From a bacterium (GTDB lineage Bacteria > Bacillota > Bacilli > Lactobacillales > Streptococcaceae), in contig CAJNDO010000003.1 of NCBI GenBank assembly GCA_905221545.1, positions 1-64,000 of the forward strand: a stretch of 64,000 bases of DNA, given 5' to 3'. Every line of letters begins with the position of its first letter. Position 1 is the first letter of the stretch. The position numbers and the translations under genes were made by a program. Of the stretch, positions 1 through 22,864 are shown one piece after another. The notes below the pieces were generated by a model that saw only the letters and a program-made list of their open reading frames with translations, was not told where the DNA came from and ran no database searches.

Positions 1-3000
1 TAATCATCTGTTAATGGTGTTTCTGTTTTATTTTCTCCTTCACCCTTAACATTAACTACTTTCACCAATGCTTTTTGCGGATCTGCCACGTATGTGATTG
101 GCGTATCCTTACCTGGTTTTTCCGGTATTTCTGGAACCTTGTATCCTTTTTTAGGATTTTTTGGATCTACCGGTTTTAATGGTACTAGCGGATTTGTCTC
201 AGGATCCACTGGTTGTGTTGGATCTGTTGGTATACCCGGTGTGTACCCTGGTTCGTATGGAATTACCGGTAATTCTGGAGTTTTTGGTTTTTCAGGAGTT
301 CCTGGAGTTTCACCGCCTGGAGTCTCATTTCCTCCACCTGGTGTGTTGTTCCCTCCTCCTGGTGTTTCACCACCTGGATTCTCAGGTTGTGGGTTTGGTG
401 TTCCATCCGGATTTTCCGGTGTTTTTGGATAATCTGGATATTTAGGTTTTGTTGCATCGTCTGGATCATTTGGATATGGGATTGGTGTTGGAGTTTTTCC
501 TGGTATCTTCGGTACCCATGATCCTATCTTAGTGTATACAACTTCTTTAGTCATATTCGTTACTTCGCCATTTTCATTTGGCGCTGCTGGTGCATCTGTA
601 ACTTCCTTAATATCTGCTACATATCCAGTTAATACTGGAGTTTTCACTGATGAAAAACTTGTAGCTGTATGTGTATCATCTGCAGTTGCTATCCACTTAC
701 CATAAGTAACTGTTTTGCTAACTAAGTTATATGTTGCAGTACGTTTGTATAATACTTTGTCTACCTTTGTAGGTTGTGCATCTGCAATTTTTTCCCCGTC
801 TGCAGTTTCTTTTTTAAAGTAATTAATTGTTCTTGTTACTTCTTTTGTAAGATCTGACTCTTTTAGTCCTGTTTCTGGCCATTTTGGTCCATCTGGAACA
901 GTAGGGTCAACCGGTGTATCTGGAGTTGGTGGAGTTGTTACTGTTACTACTTTTTCTCTCACAGTCACACTATACACCTGACTTGGTTCTTGTCCGTCAG
1001 TATCAGTCACAGAATCGATTGTTTTATCTCCATTAGTAAATGTATCACCTACAATTTCATATCCTGCATTTTTAAGTTCTGTGATTTTTGTATCTACATC
1101 TGTTGAAGAGAATGTCTCTCCTACATTACCAGAAAGCGTAATATCAGCATATTCAGTTAACGGTTCCGTTACTGTCTCAGATACTTGTTTCTTGAAGTGA
1201 ACGACACCTTTACCTGTAGGTGGAGCTGTGTATTCCTCATATACATAAGTTACTGTTCTTGCTCCTGTAGTTATCGTTCCTCTGTCACTTGCAGAAGCTT
1301 TTAATCTTCCATCTTCAACCGAATTGTCATCTAATGATCTCTTCAATCTATAGCGTTTACCATCAGCTGTTGTTAAAGTAGCAAGTTTTTTGCCTGTTAC
1401 ATCATAATCTGTACCTAATAATTGATCTTTTTGAGCAATATATGTTCCGTCTGTATCTTTTTTACCTAAAACATCTTCTCCTTGACCAGTTACAGTATTT
1501 TTAAGCGTCAATAGAGTTCCATCGACAGTTTGATACTTAACTTTTACATCTCCTGACATAGCTGATCTTAGTTCAGATGTCTTTTTACTCTTTTCAATTT
1601 CTTCTTTTATTTTTTTCTCTTGCTCTTCAGTAATCTTACCTTTTTCTTTTAATTTAGTAATGATACGTCTTGCGACTTCCTTCGATGGTTCTACCGTATC
1701 TTGAATTACTGAGAAATCGGCTAGGATAGGTAAGTTGTATTGAAGTCTTGGACTTTGCATATTAACACCAACACGTTTTTCATTTTCTGCAAACACTTGC
1801 ACTTTATAGGATACAACGTCTTTTCCTAGTGGAATATCTCCTGTTGAGAAGTAGCCACCTTTACCTAGTTTTTCCTTATCGCCATCAATTGCTTTTGTAA
1901 TTTCTTCTGATAATTTTTCATCAGAAATAACCCTATCACGCGAAACATTATATTTTTCAACAAAGTGGTTAGTGAATTTTTTTAAACCATCTTGTGCCTC
2001 CAAAGCGAGTGCATTGGTTCGTATTTTATTATACTCATCTTCCGTTAATTCGCTTTTGTCAGGTTGTCTGGTAGCGTACATGTTTGAACCAAGGATTTTT
2101 GCTTCTTTACCGTTTCTAGCCTCCATGTAAGTATAAGCATTTGTGGACCCAATGGCTGATTTTAGTCCAGAAATTTCTTGCTTAAGTTTAGTTTTTTGAG
2201 TTTCATCCGTAGTCGTCTCTAACAGAGCTTCTTTTTCCGTTAGCTTAGCCTTAAGTTCTGCACGATGAGTCTTCACTTTTTCTGAATCTGTCACTAGTTC
2301 CAGTTGATCTGTATCTCCATGATAGATAATTTTTTTCGCAGTCGGTAATATAAAATCTAGTAATTTATAGACACGATCTGAGTCTCTAGACTTAATTAAA
2401 TTTGTGTTGTCTGGATATTTTTCACTGGTAGTCAACCATGTTGGAGAGTTTTTTTGAACCTCCTTATCCTTCACTAGCTTTAATAAACCATTTAATTCAT
2501 TTCCATATCTAGTAAACGATTCTTTAAAATTAGTCTCATTTTTGAAATTTTTTTCATTCAATTTATCCTTATCTATCGGTAATTCAACTATCGCTTCTCC
2601 TTTTTCAGCGAGTTCTTTTTCTATAATAGGATACAGATGTTTATATTTAGTAACACTTGGATTACGTTGCCCTGGATTTTCTTTGATATATCGATCTTTT
2701 GCAAGTGCCTTAACTTTTTCATCGAACTCCTTCTTCAATAGTTCTTTAATTTTGGCATTAACCGCCGTTAAATTCACACCTTGAGCATAACGTTCTTCGT
2801 TCTCTACTACTCCGTCAATACGGTTGATAGTGTGGTCATAGACAGTTTCTTCAGATTTATCCTTTTTAATCGCTTTAACAACGATACGATAAGTTCCTTT
2901 TGACCCTGCAAAGTCTGAGATATACCCTGTTACAAAGTCAATTTTCAAACGACTTCCATATTTCGTTGAAAAGGCTTTAAAAGTTTTTTCAATTCCATTG

Positions 3001-4273: not shown

Positions 4274-4302
4274 ATTATACATCAAACAACTATAAATTTC
4301 AA
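4274..4302 (-). promoter_or_regulatory. Sigma-A promoter of the surface protein gene
   Basis: On the minus strand TTGAAA (4302-4297) is followed by a 17-base spacer and a perfect TATAAT (4279-4274). Transcription would begin near 4267 and give a leader of about 80 bases that includes the TA tract. Confidence 0.75.
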
Positions 4303-4650
4303 TTTTTTTGATTTTTGATTGAAATGGAAAATTAGCGGGGAAAATTAGCAGATAGACGACTCTTTTTACCAATACCAAAGGTAGGGTAGGAATCCCTCAT
4401 CAGTAAACCAACAGCACAAATGAAACCCCATCAGCCTTGCCCTGTCGTGTGCATCTGATGGACCTTACTTCCTCCTATCAGCAAGCTCAGTCCTGTGCTT
4501 TGAGACCTTCCCAGCTTGCTTTAGGATTTCCATTAACTTTATACACTTATTTCTTTAAAAATGAAACAATTTGAGATTTTTTCTACCCTTTTTCTTCTTT
4601 TTCCGAATAAATAGATAGAGGCATCAAATTTAGTAAAACTAGATTAAAAA
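4303..4650. other. Gene-free stretch with two tandem inverted repeats (possible small RNA)
   Basis: No plausible ORF is present. Two inverted repeats lie side by side: CCATCAG/CTGATGG (4428-4434 and 4455-4461) and AGCAAGCT/AGCTTGCT (4480-4487 and 4513-4520, 25-base loop). The segment about 4380-4530 is visibly richer in G+C than its surroundings, as structured RNAs in AT-rich genomes often are. On the minus strand TATAAA (4543-4538) could start a transcript near 4531. There is no clear U-tract terminator on either strand. It does not match 4.5S RNA, RNase P RNA or tmRNA signatures that I know. Identity is unknown. Confidence 0.4.
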
Positions 4651-4653
4651 ATG

Positions 4654-4662
4654 TGCTATAAT
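4654..4662 (+). promoter_or_regulatory. Extended -10 promoter of the Rpn-type gene
   Basis: TGCTATAAT (4654-4662) is a full extended -10 element; the -35 (TAAAAC at 4634) is weak. Transcription would start near 4669, inside or after the ribosome binding site AAAGGAG (4664-4670), so the resulting mRNA may lack a complete site. Confidence 0.6.
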
Positions 4663-4677
4663 GAAAGGAGAGAAAGA

Positions 4678-5604
4678 ATGATTCTCAGACATCCGGGCAT
4701 CAGCCCAACTAACGATTTGGTTGCTAAGAAGATTTTCAGCAATCCAGAAATCACTTGTCAATTTATCCGCGATATGCTGGACTTACCTGCAAAAAATGTA
4801 ACGATTTTGGAGGGGAGTAATATTCACGTTTTGCCTTCTACGCCTTACTTGGCTCAGGGTTTCTATACCAGTATAGACGTCTTGGCGGAGTTGGATAATG
4901 GCACACAGGTTATTATCGAAATACAAGTTCATCATCAGAATTTTTTTATCAATCGTTTGTGGGCTTACTTATGCAGTCAGGTCAATCAAAATCTAGAAAA
5001 AATTCGTCAACGTGAAGGTGATACACACCAGAGTTACAAGCATATCGCACCTGTTTACGCTATCGCAATTGTGGATAGCAACTACTTCCAAGATGATTTG
5101 GCCTTTCACAGTTTCAGTATGCGCGAGGACACGACGGGTGAAGTTTTAACAATCACAAACAACGGTCAGGAAAATCATCTGGTCAAGATGGCATTCTTGG
5201 AATTAAAAAAATACAGAGAAACCAGCAAAGACGAGGTTCGTAAGCCGTGGTTAGAGTTTTTTGGGAACAAACCCTTTACCCAGCAACCTGAACGAGCCAT
5301 CAGCCAAGCAGACCAACTGCTGGACTACAAAAGCTGGTCCGAGGAGGACAGGAAAATGTTTAGTCAACTACGTATGCGAGAAGAACAAGCCTTGTTAGCA
5401 CAGGACTATGCCTTGGAACAAGCTGAGGAAAAGGGATTAGAGCGAGGTCGTGCAGAGGGGATTGAACAAGGGAAAGCTGAAGGTAGTTTCTCGATGTTAG
5501 CAAATCTAGTCCGCCAAGGTCTTCTGACTTCGGAGGTAGCTAGCCAGCAGTTGGGTATGACTGTGGCTGAGTTTGAGGCGCTACTGAAAGACTATCATAA
5601 ATAA
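4678..5604 (+). CDS. Rpn family recombination-promoting nuclease / PD-(D/E)XK transposase-like protein
   Basis: The 308-residue start at 4678 is chosen over the upstream ATG at 4651 because AAAGGAG sits seven bases before it and the upstream codons overlap the promoter. The N-terminal half is a PD-(D/E)XK nuclease domain of the PDDEXK_2/Rpn family; likely catalytic residues are Asp67 and the Glu81-x-Gln83 pair after the NGTQVIIEIQ strand. The C-terminal third is charged and helical, with a GLERGRAEGIEQG motif typical of the family, and ends in a small conserved helix. Rpn proteins are DNA endonucleases; in E. coli their toxicity is restrained by a C-terminal protein made from an internal start, and they act in phage defence. 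An equivalent internal start is visible here at 5356. The 3' end is duplicated downstream. Confidence 0.85.
   Translation: MILRHPGISPTNDLVAKKIFSNPEITCQFIRDMLDLPAKNVTILEGSNIHVLPSTPYLAQGFYTSIDVLAELDNGTQVIIEIQVHHQNFFINRLWAYLCSQVNQNLEKIRQREGDTHQSYKHIAPVYAIAIVDSNYFQDDLAFHSFSMREDTTGEVLTITNNGQENHLVKMAFLELKKYRETSKDEVRKPWLEFFGNKPFTQQPERAISQADQLLDYKSWSEEDRKMFSQLRMREEQALLAQDYALEQAEEKGLERGRAEGIEQGKAEGSFSMLANLVRQGLLTSEVASQQLGMTVAEFEALLKDYHK
5356..5604 (+). CDS. Candidate internally initiated C-terminal small protein of the Rpn gene (RpnS-like)
   Basis: Inside the Rpn gene, in the same frame, GAGGAGG (5341-5347) lies eight bases before an ATG at 5356. This is a stronger ribosome binding site than the one before the full-length start. 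It would produce 82 residues (MFSQLRMREEQALLAQDYAL onward): the charged helix, one GLERGRAEGIEQG unit and the terminal helix, with no nuclease domain. In E. coli, C-terminal products of this kind inhibit the full-length Rpn. The site is preserved at the same place in the downstream partial copy. Translation from it is inferred from sequence only. Confidence 0.45.
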   Translation: MFSQLRMREEQALLAQDYALEQAEEKGLERGRAEGIEQGKAEGSFSMLANLVRQGLLTSEVASQQLGMTVAEFEALLKDYHK

Positions 5605-5759
5605 GGCCTAAAAAATACAGAGAAACCAGCAAAGACGAGGTTCGCAAGCCATGGTTGGAGTTTTTCGGGAATAAACCCTTTACCCAGCAACCCGAGCGAG
5701 CCATCAGCCAAGCAGACCAACTGCTAGACTACAAGAGCTGGTCCGAGGAGGACAGGAAA

Positions 5760-6065
5760 ATGTTTAGCCAACTACGTATGCGAGAAGAACAAGCCTTGTT
5801 AGCACAGGACTATGCCTTGGAACAAGCTGAGGAAAAGGGCTTAGAGCGGGGACTAGAGCGTGGTCGAGCAGAGGGGATTGAACAAGGTCTAGAACGTGGC
5901 CGTGCTGAGGGAATTGAACAGGGACTAGAGCGTGGACGAGCAGAGGGGATCGAAGAGGGATTAAAAGTAGGTTTAGTAAATTTAGTCCGTCAAGGTCTGC
6001 TGCCACCTGAGGTTGCAAGTCAGCAATTAGGCATGACCGTTGCTGAGTTTGAGGCCTTGTTGTAA
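5760..6065 (+). CDS. Stand-alone Rpn C-terminal domain protein (possible free antitoxin-like product or remnant)
   Basis: In the duplicated copy the same GAGGAGG (5745-5751) precedes ATG 5760 by eight bases, giving 101 residues. It begins MFSQLRMREEQALLAQDYAL like the internal product of the full gene, carries three GLERGRAEGIEQ-type units instead of one, and ends with the conserved terminal helix (VRQGLLPPEVASQQLG). A longer ORF can be opened from a TTG at 5655, but that codon has no ribosome binding site. The frame is intact and differences from copy one are mostly silent or conservative, so it may be expressed. It could equally be a decaying duplication or a donor cassette for recombination with the full gene. 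Confidence 0.45.
   Translation: MFSQLRMREEQALLAQDYALEQAEEKGLERGLERGRAEGIEQGLERGRAEGIEQGLERGRAEGIEEGLKVGLVNLVRQGLLPPEVASQQLGMTVAEFEALL
5850..5957 (+). repeat. In-frame 36-bp minisatellite, three units
   Basis: Three 36-base units (5850-5885, 5886-5921, 5922-5957) each encode GLERGRAEGIEQ or a close variant. The units differ mainly at third codon positions, so the protein repeat is kept while the DNA has drifted. The full-length gene has only one unit at this place. Confidence 0.85.
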
Positions 6066-6073
6066 GACCAGCA

Positions 6074-6128
6074 CTAACGGTCAGAAAAACCATCTAGTCA
6101 AGATGGCCTTCTTAGAGCTAAAAAATAT
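6074..6128 (+). pseudogene. Third, tiny fragment of the Rpn gene
   Basis: ACGGTCAGAAAAACCATC and what follows repeats the segment of the full gene starting near 5163, encoding NGQKNHLVKMAFLELKN before it runs out of homology. It begins directly where copy two ends, so it is a third tandem remnant with no coding capacity of its own. Confidence 0.75.
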
Positions 6129-6189
6129 ATAAAATCAAACAGCAAACTAAACATCTCGCCACAAGACTGGGAAAAATCTTTAAAATTAA

Positions 6190-6236
6190 AAACCGCATAT
6201 AATCAGGTATTGAAGAACCTTGATAATATGCGGTTT
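6190..6236. terminator. Long, nearly perfect hairpin between the Rpn remnants and pgm
   Basis: AAACCGCATAT (6190-6200) pairs with ATATGCGGTTT (6226-6236). The stem continues inward, TCAGGT against ACCTTGA with one bulge, leaving a loop of about eight bases. It lacks a strong U tract, so it may be a weak bidirectional terminator or an RNA element. Confidence 0.5.
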
Positions 6237-6356
6237 ATTGTGGAGAGATTTACTTCATTTTCTCCTGAAATTGAGTTTTTCTACGCATCAACCTCATACA
6301 TACAGAAAAGTTAAGCTGACCTGGTTTGTCGAAAAGATTTTAGAGGAGTATAAGCA

Positions 6357-6385
6357 TTTACTAAAACTAAAAAAAATGATATAAT
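6357..6385 (+). promoter_or_regulatory. pgm promoter
   Basis: TTTACT (6357-6362), a 17-base spacer, then TGATATAAT (6377-6385) with an extended -10. The leader is about 33 bases and carries AAAGGAG before the start codon. Confidence 0.7.
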
Positions 6386-6424
6386 GAAGCCGATTAAATG
6401 TTTTAAAAATAAAGGAGAATTTTA

Positions 6425-8143
6425 ATGTCTTATCAAGAAAATTACCAGAAATGGGTTGATTTTGCGGAGCTTCCTGACTACCTTCGCCAAGATTTGGAAA
6501 ATATGGACGAAAAAACAAAGGAAGATGCCTTCTATACAAATCTTGAATTTGGTACTGCGGGTATGCGTGGCTTGATTGGTGCTGGTACAAACCGCATCAA
6601 CATCTACGTTGTTCGTCAAGCTACTGAAGGATTGGCTCGTTTGATTGAGTCAAAAGGTGGAAACGAAAAAGAACGTGGTGTCGCAATCGCCTACGATAGC
6701 CGTCACTTCTCACCAGAGTTTGCCTTTGAATCTGCAGCAGTTCTTGCTAAACACGGCATCAAATCTTATGTATTTGAAAGCCTTCGTCCAACTCCAGAAC
6801 TCTCATTTGCAGTTCGTCACCTCAACTGTTTCGCAGGTATTATGGTCACAGCCAGCCACAACCCTGCTCCATTTAACGGTTACAAGGTTTACGGTGAAGA
6901 TGGTGGACAAATGCCTCCACACGATGCGGACGCTTTGACTACTTATATCCGTGCAATCGAAAACCCATTTGCAGTTGAAGTTGCTGATGTGGAAGCTGAA
7001 AAAGCTTCTGGCTTGATTGAAGTTATCGGCGAAGCTGTTGACGTAGAATACCTTAAAGAGGTTAAGGACGTAAACATCAACCCAGCCTTGATTGAAGAAT
7101 TTGGTAAAGACATGAAAATTGTCTATACACCACTTCATGGTACTGGTGAAATGTTGGCTCGTCGTGCTCTTGCCCAAGCAGGATTTGACTCTGTTCAAGT
7201 CGTTGAAGCGCAAGCAACTGCCGATCCTGACTTCTCAACTGTAAAATCTCCAAACCCAGAAAGCCAAGCAGCCTTTGCCCTTGCAGAAGAACTTGGTCGT
7301 CAAGTTGGTGCAGATGTTCTTGTCGCAACTGATCCTGATGCTGACCGTGTTGGTGTTGAAGTTCTTCAAAAAGATGGTAGCTACCTCAACCTTTCAGGTA
7401 ACCAAATTGGTGCTATCATGGCTAAATACATCTTGGAAGCCCACAAAAACGCTGGAACTCTTCCTGAAAATGCAGCCCTATGTAAATCTATCGTATCAAC
7501 TGACTTGGTAACGAAGATTGCTGAAAGCTACGGCGCAACCATGTTCAACGTCTTGACTGGTTTCAAATTCATCGCTGAAAAAATCCAAGAATTCGAAGAA
7601 AAACATAATCACACTTACATGATGGGATTTGAAGAAAGCTTCGGTTACTTGATTAAACCATTTGTACGTGATAAAGATGCAATCCAAGCCGTTCTTGTCG
7701 TTGCTGAACTTGCTGCCTACTACCGTTCACGTGGTTTGACACTTGCTGACGGTATCGAAGAAATCTACAAAGAGTACGGCTACTACGCAGAAAAGACTAT
7801 CTCTGTTACCCTTTCAGGTGTCGATGGTGCAGAACAAATCAAAGCAATTATGGCTAAATTCCGCAACAATGCTCCAAAAGAATGGAACACAACAGCTATC
7901 ACTGTCTTAGAAGACTTCAAAGCCCAAACTGCTACTGCTGCTGACGGAACTGTTACAAACTTGACAACTCCTCCAAGTGATGTATTGAAATACACACTTG
8001 CTGACGGTTCATGGATTGCAGTTCGCCCTTCAGGTACAGAACCAAAAATCAAGTTCTACATTGCAGTTGTAGGTGAAACCAACGAAGAATCACAAGCTAA
8101 AATTGCTAATATCGAAGCAGAAATCAATGCTTTTGTAAAATAA
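6425..8143 (+). CDS. pgm: Phosphoglucomutase (alpha-D-phosphohexomutase)
   Basis: A 572-residue cytoplasmic enzyme that interconverts glucose 1-phosphate and glucose 6-phosphate, feeding nucleotide sugars for capsule, teichoic acid and other cell-wall glycans. The start ATG follows AAAGGAG by seven bases. Hallmarks of the phosphohexomutase superfamily are in order: TASHNP with the phosphoserine at Ser144, the Mg2+ loop DPDADR in the middle third, the sugar-binding GFEESFG segment, and the phosphate-binding RPSGTEPKIKFY near the C terminus. Length equals that of streptococcal Pgm as I recall it. It is monocistronic between its own promoter and a strong terminator. Confidence 0.95.
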   Translation: MSYQENYQKWVDFAELPDYLRQDLENMDEKTKEDAFYTNLEFGTAGMRGLIGAGTNRINIYVVRQATEGLARLIESKGGNEKERGVAIAYDSRHFSPEFAFESAAVLAKHGIKSYVFESLRPTPELSFAVRHLNCFAGIMVTASHNPAPFNGYKVYGEDGGQMPPHDADALTTYIRAIENPFAVEVADVEAEKASGLIEVIGEAVDVEYLKEVKDVNINPALIEEFGKDMKIVYTPLHGTGEMLARRALAQAGFDSVQVVEAQATADPDFSTVKSPNPESQAAFALAEELGRQVGADVLVATDPDADRVGVEVLQKDGSYLNLSGNQIGAIMAKYILEAHKNAGTLPENAALCKSIVSTDLVTKIAESYGATMFNVLTGFKFIAEKIQEFEEKHNHTYMMGFEESFGYLIKPFVRDKDAIQAVLVVAELAAYYRSRGLTLADGIEEIYKEYGYYAEKTISVTLSGVDGAEQIKAIMAKFRNNAPKEWNTTAITVLEDFKAQTATAADGTVTNLTTPPSDVLKYTLADGSWIAVRPSGTEPKIKFYIAVVGETNEESQAKIANIEAEINAFVK

Positions 8144-21462: not shown

Positions 21463-22152
21463 ATGAAAAAACCAGTTATTGGGATTACAGGAAACGAAAA
21501 AACTCATCCAGATGATGACATCATGATGAGCTACGCAGCAAAAGGCTTTGTGGAAGGCGTTAAAGACGCTGGAGGGATTCCCATCATCCTACCGATTGGT
21601 GATCAAGAAATGGCCTGCCACTATATCAGTATGATTGACAAGCTCATCTTGACAGGTGGGCAAAATGTTGATCCAAAATTCTATGGTGAACCAAAAACCA
21701 TTGATAGCGATGACTACCACCTTCAAAGAGATATCTTCGAACTAGCCCTCATCAAGGAAGCTATTAAACAGAAAAAGCCGATTTTCTCGGTCTGCCGTGG
21801 GACTCAGCTCTTTAACGTTGCCATGGGTGGAACTTTATATCAAGATATCGAAGACCACTGGCAGGATTGTTCTGCCGAGTACACAACACAACGTTTGGTA
21901 ACAGAACCAGATACTGTTCTTCGAGAAATCTATGGAGAAATCTCCCATATCAACTCCTTCCACCACCAGAGTATCAAGGATTTAGCACCTAACTTAAAGA
22001 TTGCGGCTCATGATCCTAAAGATGGTATCATTGAAGCTGTCATAAGTACGGATGATGTTGCCTTCCTCGGTGTTCAATGGCATCCAGAATTTCTTTTTGA
22101 AAATCGTCCCAAAGATAAAAACCTCTTTGACTATGTCGTTAATGAACTTTAA
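21463..22152 (+). CDS. Class I glutamine amidotransferase-like protein (peptidase C26, PuuD-like)
   Basis: 229 residues with the catalytic triad of class I amidotransferases: Cys111 in [15 protein letters not shown], His207 and Glu209 in VQWHPEF. The family includes gamma-glutamyl-GABA hydrolase; because polyamine genes are absent nearby, the substrate, probably a gamma-glutamyl compound, is unassigned. Its 3' end overlaps that of the converging radC by four bases, leaving no room for a terminator. Confidence 0.85.
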
Positions 22153-22829
22153 ATTAAATCTGTCTTTTCACGATAACTAAAGTAATTGGAGTGAGAGACA
22201 ATCAAATGGTCCAAGAGGACAATTCCCATCAGATCGCAGGCTTCCTTGACAAGCTTAGTGACATGATCATCATTTCGGCTAGGGGCTACCGCTCCTGAAG
22301 GATGGTTATGAACCAAGATGAGAGAGGTCGCCATATGCTTGATGGCATAATGAAGAATCTCTCGCGGCTCAGCGATACTACGAGTGGCAGAGCCGATAAA
22401 AATGGTCTGTTGATGAATGATTTGATTTTGAGTATTGAGATAGAGCGCCACCAGGTGCTCTTGTTTTTTTTCCCCCAATTCCTGTTGCATCTTCTTGGCC
22501 AGCTTTTGACTACTGAGAATACTTTCCATTTCAAGGGTCTCATGTTTATGAATACGATGCCCCAGTTCAATCATAGCTTGTAACTCTATTGCCTTAACTC
22601 GCCCGATACCAGATAGACTCTGCAATTCCTGCAGGGTCATTTTTTTCAAATCTGTTAGGCTTGAAAGATTATTCAAGACTTTCTGGGCAATTTCAAAAAC
22701 ACTGGACTGACGTGTCCCTGTTCTGAGTAAAATAGCTAGCAACTCTTGGTTACTGAGCGCTTCCACTCCTTCTTTGGCCAGTCTCTCTCTTGGTAATAAT
22801 GAATCTTCTTGGAATGAAATACTGTACAT
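22149..22829 (-). CDS. radC: RadC family (JAB/MPN domain) protein
   Basis: 226 residues from ATG 22829 ([10 protein letters not shown]). A GTG five codons earlier lies inside the ribosome binding site AGGAGG, which is six bases from the ATG, so it is rejected. The N terminus has a helix-hairpin-helix ([15 protein letters not shown]); the C terminus is a JAB metalloprotease-like domain with [17 protein letters not shown], the zinc ligands. Despite the name, a role in DNA repair has not held up in pneumococcus. Its ribosome binding site forms one arm of a hairpin at 22835-22864. Confidence 0.92.
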
Positions 22830-22834
22830 AAAAA

Positions 22835-22864
22835 TCCTCCTCACTTTATTATTCGTGAGAAGGA
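22835..22864 (-). terminator. Hairpin that contains the radC ribosome binding site
   Basis: On the minus strand TCCTTCTCAC (22864-22855) pairs with GTGAGGAGGA (22844-22835), ten pairs including one G-T, loop of ten bases, followed by TTTTT and the radC ATG. It looks like the pcrA intrinsic terminator, but its descending arm is also the radC Shine-Dalgarno. Confidence 0.65.

Follow-up and report, generated by a model that had tools for sequence, protein, structure and literature searches.

Does the Rpn-type nuclease gene on the plus strand of this streptococcal DNA contain a second gene, translated from an internal start codon, and is the product of the latter an antitoxin? The question arises from comparison with E. 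coli, where, according to a preprint (PMC10327210), RpnL proteins inhibit growth, RpnA cleaves DNA, and RpnS, translated from a start inside the gene, both binds to RpnL and prevents cleavage, the number of repeats affecting the specificity. The same preprint describes RpnS for a gene of C. difficile tested in E. coli. The initial annotation knew of no report of such a start in streptococci; given the C. difficile gene (PMC10327210), its novelty does not extend to Gram-positive bacteria. Below, "the window" denotes the whole analysed stretch of 64,000 nucleotides.

Features of the locus

The coordinates of the features are given in Table 1.

Table 1. Features of the rpnL/rpnS locus, in window coordinates
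Feature	Position	Strand	Remarks
ComX/SigX (late-competence) promoter-like element	4588..4616	+	core TCCGAATA at 4602-4609
rpnL, full-length Rpn-family PD-(D/E)XK nuclease	4678..5604	+	308 aa, Shine-Dalgarno box GAAAGGAG
internal Shine-Dalgarno box GAGGAGG	5341..5347	+	GGAGG in 153/153 relatives
nested rpnS, 82-aa C-terminal protein, candidate antitoxin	5356..5604	+	ATG in 153/153 relatives
downstream cassette without nuclease part: duplicated linker and C-terminal part	5608..6065	+	5610-5851 95% identical to 5206-5447
GAGGAGG of the downstream cassette	5745..5751	+	same Shine-Dalgarno box and ATG as at the internal site
free-standing rpnS copy, 101 aa	5760..6065	+	more four-residue repeats than the nested 82-aa one
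remnant of one more copy (end of the nuclease domain)	6076..6125	+	50 nt, 86% identical to 5161-5210, repeat family D4
strong hairpin, possible end of transcription unit	6190..6236	+	-21.7 kcal/mol, z -5.8

The product of rpnL exceeds the curated cut-offs of both PF12784 (E 9.4e-19, 68.5 bits, cut-off 27.4) and TIGR01784 (77.5 bits, cut-off 52.1). Residues D67, E81 and Q83, the presumed catalytic residues of the PD-(D/E)XK type, are invariant in all 12 aligned cluster representatives described below. Foldseek searches with both structural models (mean pLDDT 77 and 70) gave no match at E 0.001, and no Rpn structure was present among the 50 matches listed per model.

As the initial annotation had it, GAGGAGG at 5341-5347 is followed after 8 nt by an in-frame ATG (5356-5358), codon 227 of the 308-codon ORF 4678-5604, and the predicted product has 82 aa. 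The accompanying claim that this Shine-Dalgarno box is stronger than the main one has to be dropped, as the duplex energy is -11.6 at the internal site and -12.7 at the start 4678 (GAAAGGAG); by this measure, the two ribosome sites of rpnL, internal and main, are of about equal strength. Among the 336 internal in-frame ATGs of mechanically defined ORFs of at least 150 aa within the window, two have a Shine-Dalgarno duplex of -11.6 kcal/mol or lower, ATG 5356 being one of them, and thus the internal pair stands above chance. A separate sigma-70 promoter for rpnS was considered and rejected: the region yields no more matches than shuffled sequences do, and the one match at 5146-5175 is weak.

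The nested RpnS is predicted, with modest confidence (mean pLDDT 70), to consist of a long helix and two short helices, and its four-residue repeats fall inside the predicted helix 3-53. The RpnS lengths form two classes modulo 4, which cover 109 of 113 full genes and 59 of 63 free copies (RpnS of at least 60 aa).

Among the database matches listed for the 101-aa free RpnS in a search limited to 8000 candidates, at least 120 small proteins are 69-90% identical to it over the whole length. Several small RpnS-like proteins (P0138, P0142, P0227, P0237) bear names, for example adenylosuccinate lyase or flagellar assembly protein H, that look like misannotations. The cassette protein itself matched FliH and Yae1; these matches were rejected as due to the low complexity of the charged repeats. 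A scan of the region 4300-6480 for consensus terminators found none. At the left end of the window (94-469) there are overlapping open frames on both strands, and the plus-strand translation is repetitive and rich in Gly, Pro and Ser.

Conservation of the internal ribosome site

The loci compared were the best 80 of the 166 found, together with a chosen part of the matches from a sample of 197 Streptococcus genomes, of which 47 have an Rpn match and 150 have none. These loci contain 155 distinct full-length frames; the 153 frames of at least 270 aa were aligned, and L015 and L043 were left out as short. At 90% identity the 153 genes form 12 clusters, the largest with 115 members, and the representatives are mutually 34-89% identical.

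Both GGAGG and the ATG are present at the internal site in each of the 153 aligned genes, although the mitis-type copies are close relatives, possibly subject to mutual conversion, and their counts are not independent. The contrast with other positions of the same alignment is drawn on the 12 representatives, which are not 12 independent lineages, as identity reaches 74-89% in some pairs. In this set, five of the 271 third codon positions are invariant: two in Trp codons, one in the Met codon and two in codons of the ribosome site. Thus the latter two are the sole degenerate codons with an invariant third base, and GGAGGA at -13 is the sole invariant nucleotide run of five or more in the aligned gene. 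The codons of the site are (GAG, AAG, CAG or AGG)-GAG-(GAA, GAG or GAC), i.e. the residue before the fixed Glu may be E, K, Q or R; AGGAGG is kept nevertheless, with GGGAGG in the cluster using AGG. Elsewhere in the 12 representatives, Glu is encoded by GAG in 124 of 354 cases. As a control, a Shine-Dalgarno box of -9 or better precedes one of the 34 in-frame ATGs in codons 20-200 of the same genes.

The initial annotation had named conservation of this pair at synonymous positions as a check, and free drift of the motif in conserved proteins as a reason to abandon the idea. Drift was looked for and the opposite was seen (GGAGG in 153 of 153 genes), the DNA motif being fixed in 12 clusters while the encoded residue varies. 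Since the residue varies and AGGAGG stays, the alignment indicates that selection at the DNA level maintains the internal ribosome site.

In non-streptococcal Lactobacillales, an in-frame ATG with a duplex energy of -9.4 or lower was found 64-97 codons from the end in all 14 loci examined. This test is weaker than the streptococcal one, because a start anywhere between 45 and 140 codons from the end was accepted and because no main start was identified in two loci (L159, L160), that of the remaining ones being a guess.

Free-standing rpnS copies

The mitis-type loci contain 114 full genes and 71 free cassettes, the latter defined as copies of the internal site preceded by fewer than 200 open codons (at most 81 in 70 of the 71). 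The ATG is kept in 70 cassettes and GAGGAGG in 69; RpnS is intact, that is, has at least 60 aa and the EFE motif, in 59. Most cassettes (63) follow a full gene (48) or another cassette (15) at a distance of up to 900 nt, and the remaining eight are the first in the stretch fetched.

In the 40 codons upstream of the ATG, the ratio of nonsynonymous to synonymous changes is 111:390 in cassettes and 99:644 in full genes (Fisher p 6e-5, which assumes independent changes, whereas these changes are not independent). For the first 21 codons of RpnS the ratios are 51:196 and 77:290, respectively (p 1.0). By these counts the upstream remnant is relaxed in cassettes and the RpnS part is as constrained as in full genes. 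Six cassettes carry a total of seven stop codons in the 40 upstream codons; however, stops alone are no evidence of relaxation, because full genes exclude them by definition.

An RpnS-like frame was also found within 800 nt behind 16 of 38 divergent full genes, and 15 of these frames have their best start at the Met matching the internal one, L100 being the exception. In L087, L091, L112 and L113 the linker is gone, and the nuclease's stop codon is followed 12 nt later by the ATG of the free copy. In L087 and L112 this stop, TAG, doubles as a part of the ribosome site (TAGGAGG); the site of L091 and L113, TAAGAGG, is weak (-6.5). The part beginning at the internal ATG has thus become a gene of its own more than once in evolution.

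The RpnS sequences are distinct in 109 of the 114 full genes and in 70 of the 71 free copies, and in 62 of 63 pairs the cassette and the unit preceding it have RpnS of unequal length. A match of cassettes to the unit just upstream is thus not supported, as the lengths coincide in one of the 63 pairs and 5.3% would be expected by chance. Seven of the 63 cassettes match other full genes of the set (at least 95% identity and equal length). If the repeat-number rule of E. coli holds here, the free copies would fit other nucleases rather than the neighbouring one.

Candidate ComX promoter

The element upstream of rpnL agrees with the published 29-bp ComX consensus (PMC6560143) at 23 of the 24 informative positions. 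The T-rich stretch and the cin-box TNCGAATA expected of a ComX/SigX promoter are both present. The sole other site of the window scoring 23 (22871-22843, minus strand) lies before the ORF 22149-22844 on the same strand and served as a positive control. Judging from its sequence, we take this ORF to be radC. The latter gene is listed as ComX-regulated (PMC6560143). No cin-box match occurs in the window between 4609 and 12153.

The box TNCGAATA is present at most 130 nt upstream of 121 of the 149 streptococcal full genes with enough upstream sequence (102 of 112 mitis-type genes and 19 of 37 others). The background is 1.8% in 3000 random 130-nt pieces of the loci, and in the controls the box precedes two of 86 other ORFs and one of 70 cassettes. 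At the level of clusters, eight of 12 have the exact box in at least one member (four of six in L115, one of two in L114), in L094, L101 and L130 the last base of the box is changed in some or all members, and L120 has no box. L094 and L120 are represented by one gene each. In L101 and L130 taken together, the exact box is found in none of 13 genes and the box with the changed last base in 11; TTCGAATG or TTCGAATT at about -52/-57 from the start replaces the exact cin-box. The replacement may reflect variation of the ComX site in these lineages, or its decay. The wider consensus scores 15-22 of 24 in the divergent clusters and mostly 22-24 in the mitis-type genes. Outside Streptococcus the box was found in none of the 14 Rpn loci, where the main starts are uncertain.

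The box is found at -75/-76 in mitis-type genes; elsewhere its position is mostly between -51 and -56. Among the 102 mitis-type copies the agreement is about 0.4 upstream of the box and T-stretch and 0.83-0.91 just after, the value within the box being high by construction, as the alignment was anchored on it. As the agreement rises at the box from a near-background level to a high one, the shared mitis-type unit appears to start at the promoter.

In pneumococcal D39V, two Rpn-derived pseudogenes are induced by ComX according to RNA-seq, and an intact Rpn copy might matter for transformation (PMC6560143). These are Rpn-derived genes under ComX control; unlike the genes considered here, they are pseudogenes, and their description in PMC6560143 mentions no internal start or antitoxin. 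No Rpn gene is among the S. mitis-specific SigX genes named in passages of a pheromone RNA-seq study (PMC6001120). Literature joining Rpn with competence was found for the pneumococcal pseudogenes alone (PMC6560143).

Discussion

The most likely reading, to which we assign a probability of about 0.8, is that the locus is a streptococcal RpnL/RpnS toxin-antitoxin gene-within-gene, probably expressed as a ComX-promoted mRNA and accompanied by a downstream rpnS copy. We consider it to be of the same kind as RpnL/RpnS because the gene encodes a nuclease of this family with its presumed catalytic residues, has an internal start and repeats, and is accompanied by free copies. One mRNA, probably from a ComX-dependent promoter, would be made in competent cells. 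Translation from 4678 would yield the PD-(D/E)XK nuclease RpnL, and translation from the internal site at 5356 on the same mRNA would yield the 82-aa RpnS. Through its helix with the repeats, the latter would pair with the same domain of RpnL and restrain the nuclease. The longer downstream rpnS (5760) has its own ribosome site and would be carried by the same presumed transcript. RpnL and RpnS would thus be produced together in competent cells. We infer the translation of RpnS, its pairing and inhibitory action, and ComX control in this strain. The proposal of the initial annotation, a nested antitoxin as in the rpn genes of E. coli, is therefore borne out in the family, the domain split, the repeats and the free copies, translation and antitoxin activity being the parts that we infer. 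It mentioned neither the duplication just downstream nor the likely control by competence.

The known systems (RpnA-E and RpnP2 of E. coli and the C. difficile gene; PMC10327210) share with the streptococcal one the PD-(D/E)XK Rpn nuclease with an internal start before the C-terminal helical domain, the four-residue repeats varying in number, and downstream free rpnS copies. In particular, a free RpnS copy downstream of a full gene is seen in E. coli YpaA/RpnES; however, a single copy is described there (PMC10327210), whereas streptococci have up to two in a row after the full gene. The streptococcal system further differs from that described in PMC10327210 in a promoter resembling ComX promoters and in the number of Rpn matches in some mitis-like genomes, at least 12 per genome. 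Such genomes are G067, G086 and G164, with 15-20 candidates.

An entirely different explanation of the conserved GAGGAGG is that it is retained for the protein alone, as an acidic motif before a helix, and no small protein is made. Indeed, the motif sits in codons for S-E-E-D-R-K, and near-zero synonymous diversity is seen in 17% of 259 conserved degenerate codons (42 of 96 mitis-type genes used). However, the first residue is E, K, Q or R, the next Glu is GAG in 12 of 12 representatives while the following codon drifts (GAA, GAG or GAC), none of the other degenerate third positions among the 271 is invariant, and the site is kept in free copies without the upstream protein, all of which makes this explanation very improbable. 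It is also quite improbable, if less so, that the internal site is real and its short product, instead of acting as an antitoxin, serves the nuclease as an assembly partner or as an activator. The Cas10d/Cas11d gene-within-gene, cited in PMC10327210, is a precedent, as its short product is a working subunit; on the other hand, the same domain in E. coli blocks toxicity, SOS induction and cleavage (PMC10327210).

Two further alternatives concern the cassettes and the promoter. The downstream cassettes may be inert remains left by tandem duplication, or may act as silent donors of repeat variants, and not be working antitoxin genes. This is a possibility to be taken seriously, though not the one we favour: 12 of the 71 mitis-type cassettes are not intact, 70 of 71 cassette sequences are distinct, and the length mismatch in 62 of 63 pairs would make for a poor inhibitor by the repeat-number rule of PMC10327210, but the RpnS part is as constrained as in full genes and the upstream remnant is relaxed, similar free copies exist in divergent lineages, and RpnES of E. 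coli is made (PMC10327210). Somewhat less likely, the gene has no part in competence and has simply inherited its ComX-like promoter. The induced pneumococcal examples are pseudogenes (PMC6560143), and deletion of other species-specific CSP-induced genes of S. mitis left transformation unaltered (PMC6001120). However, the exact box occurs in at least one member of eight of 12 clusters, its position differing between the mitis type (-75/-76) and the others (mostly -51 to -56), and the mitis-type sequence right upstream of the box is not conserved.

If the locus is indeed an RpnL/RpnS pair, its role may, as a tentative suggestion, be release of the nuclease against incoming or phage DNA around DNA uptake. 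A more speculative and rather unlikely scheme is that the ComX promoter together with rpnL/rpnS constitutes a spreading unit, whose dispersed copies are jointly switched on in competent cells. The nuclease would then cut recipient or incoming DNA and favour copying-in of rpn-bearing donor DNA, the unit being an element, selfish or driving recombination, that exploits natural transformation, and the free rpnS cassettes would shield the host from the many non-matching nucleases.

The RpnL/RpnS gene-within-gene was already known, and it is the competence-timed Rpn toxin-antitoxin system that appears to be new. If our reading is correct, the Rpn antitoxin-within-gene would be general in streptococci and tied to natural competence. 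The many natural RpnL/RpnS variants could be used for tests of partner specificity. The competence peptide would be a condition that may switch on a silent Rpn system, which bears on the release of RpnL, a question left by PMC10327210.
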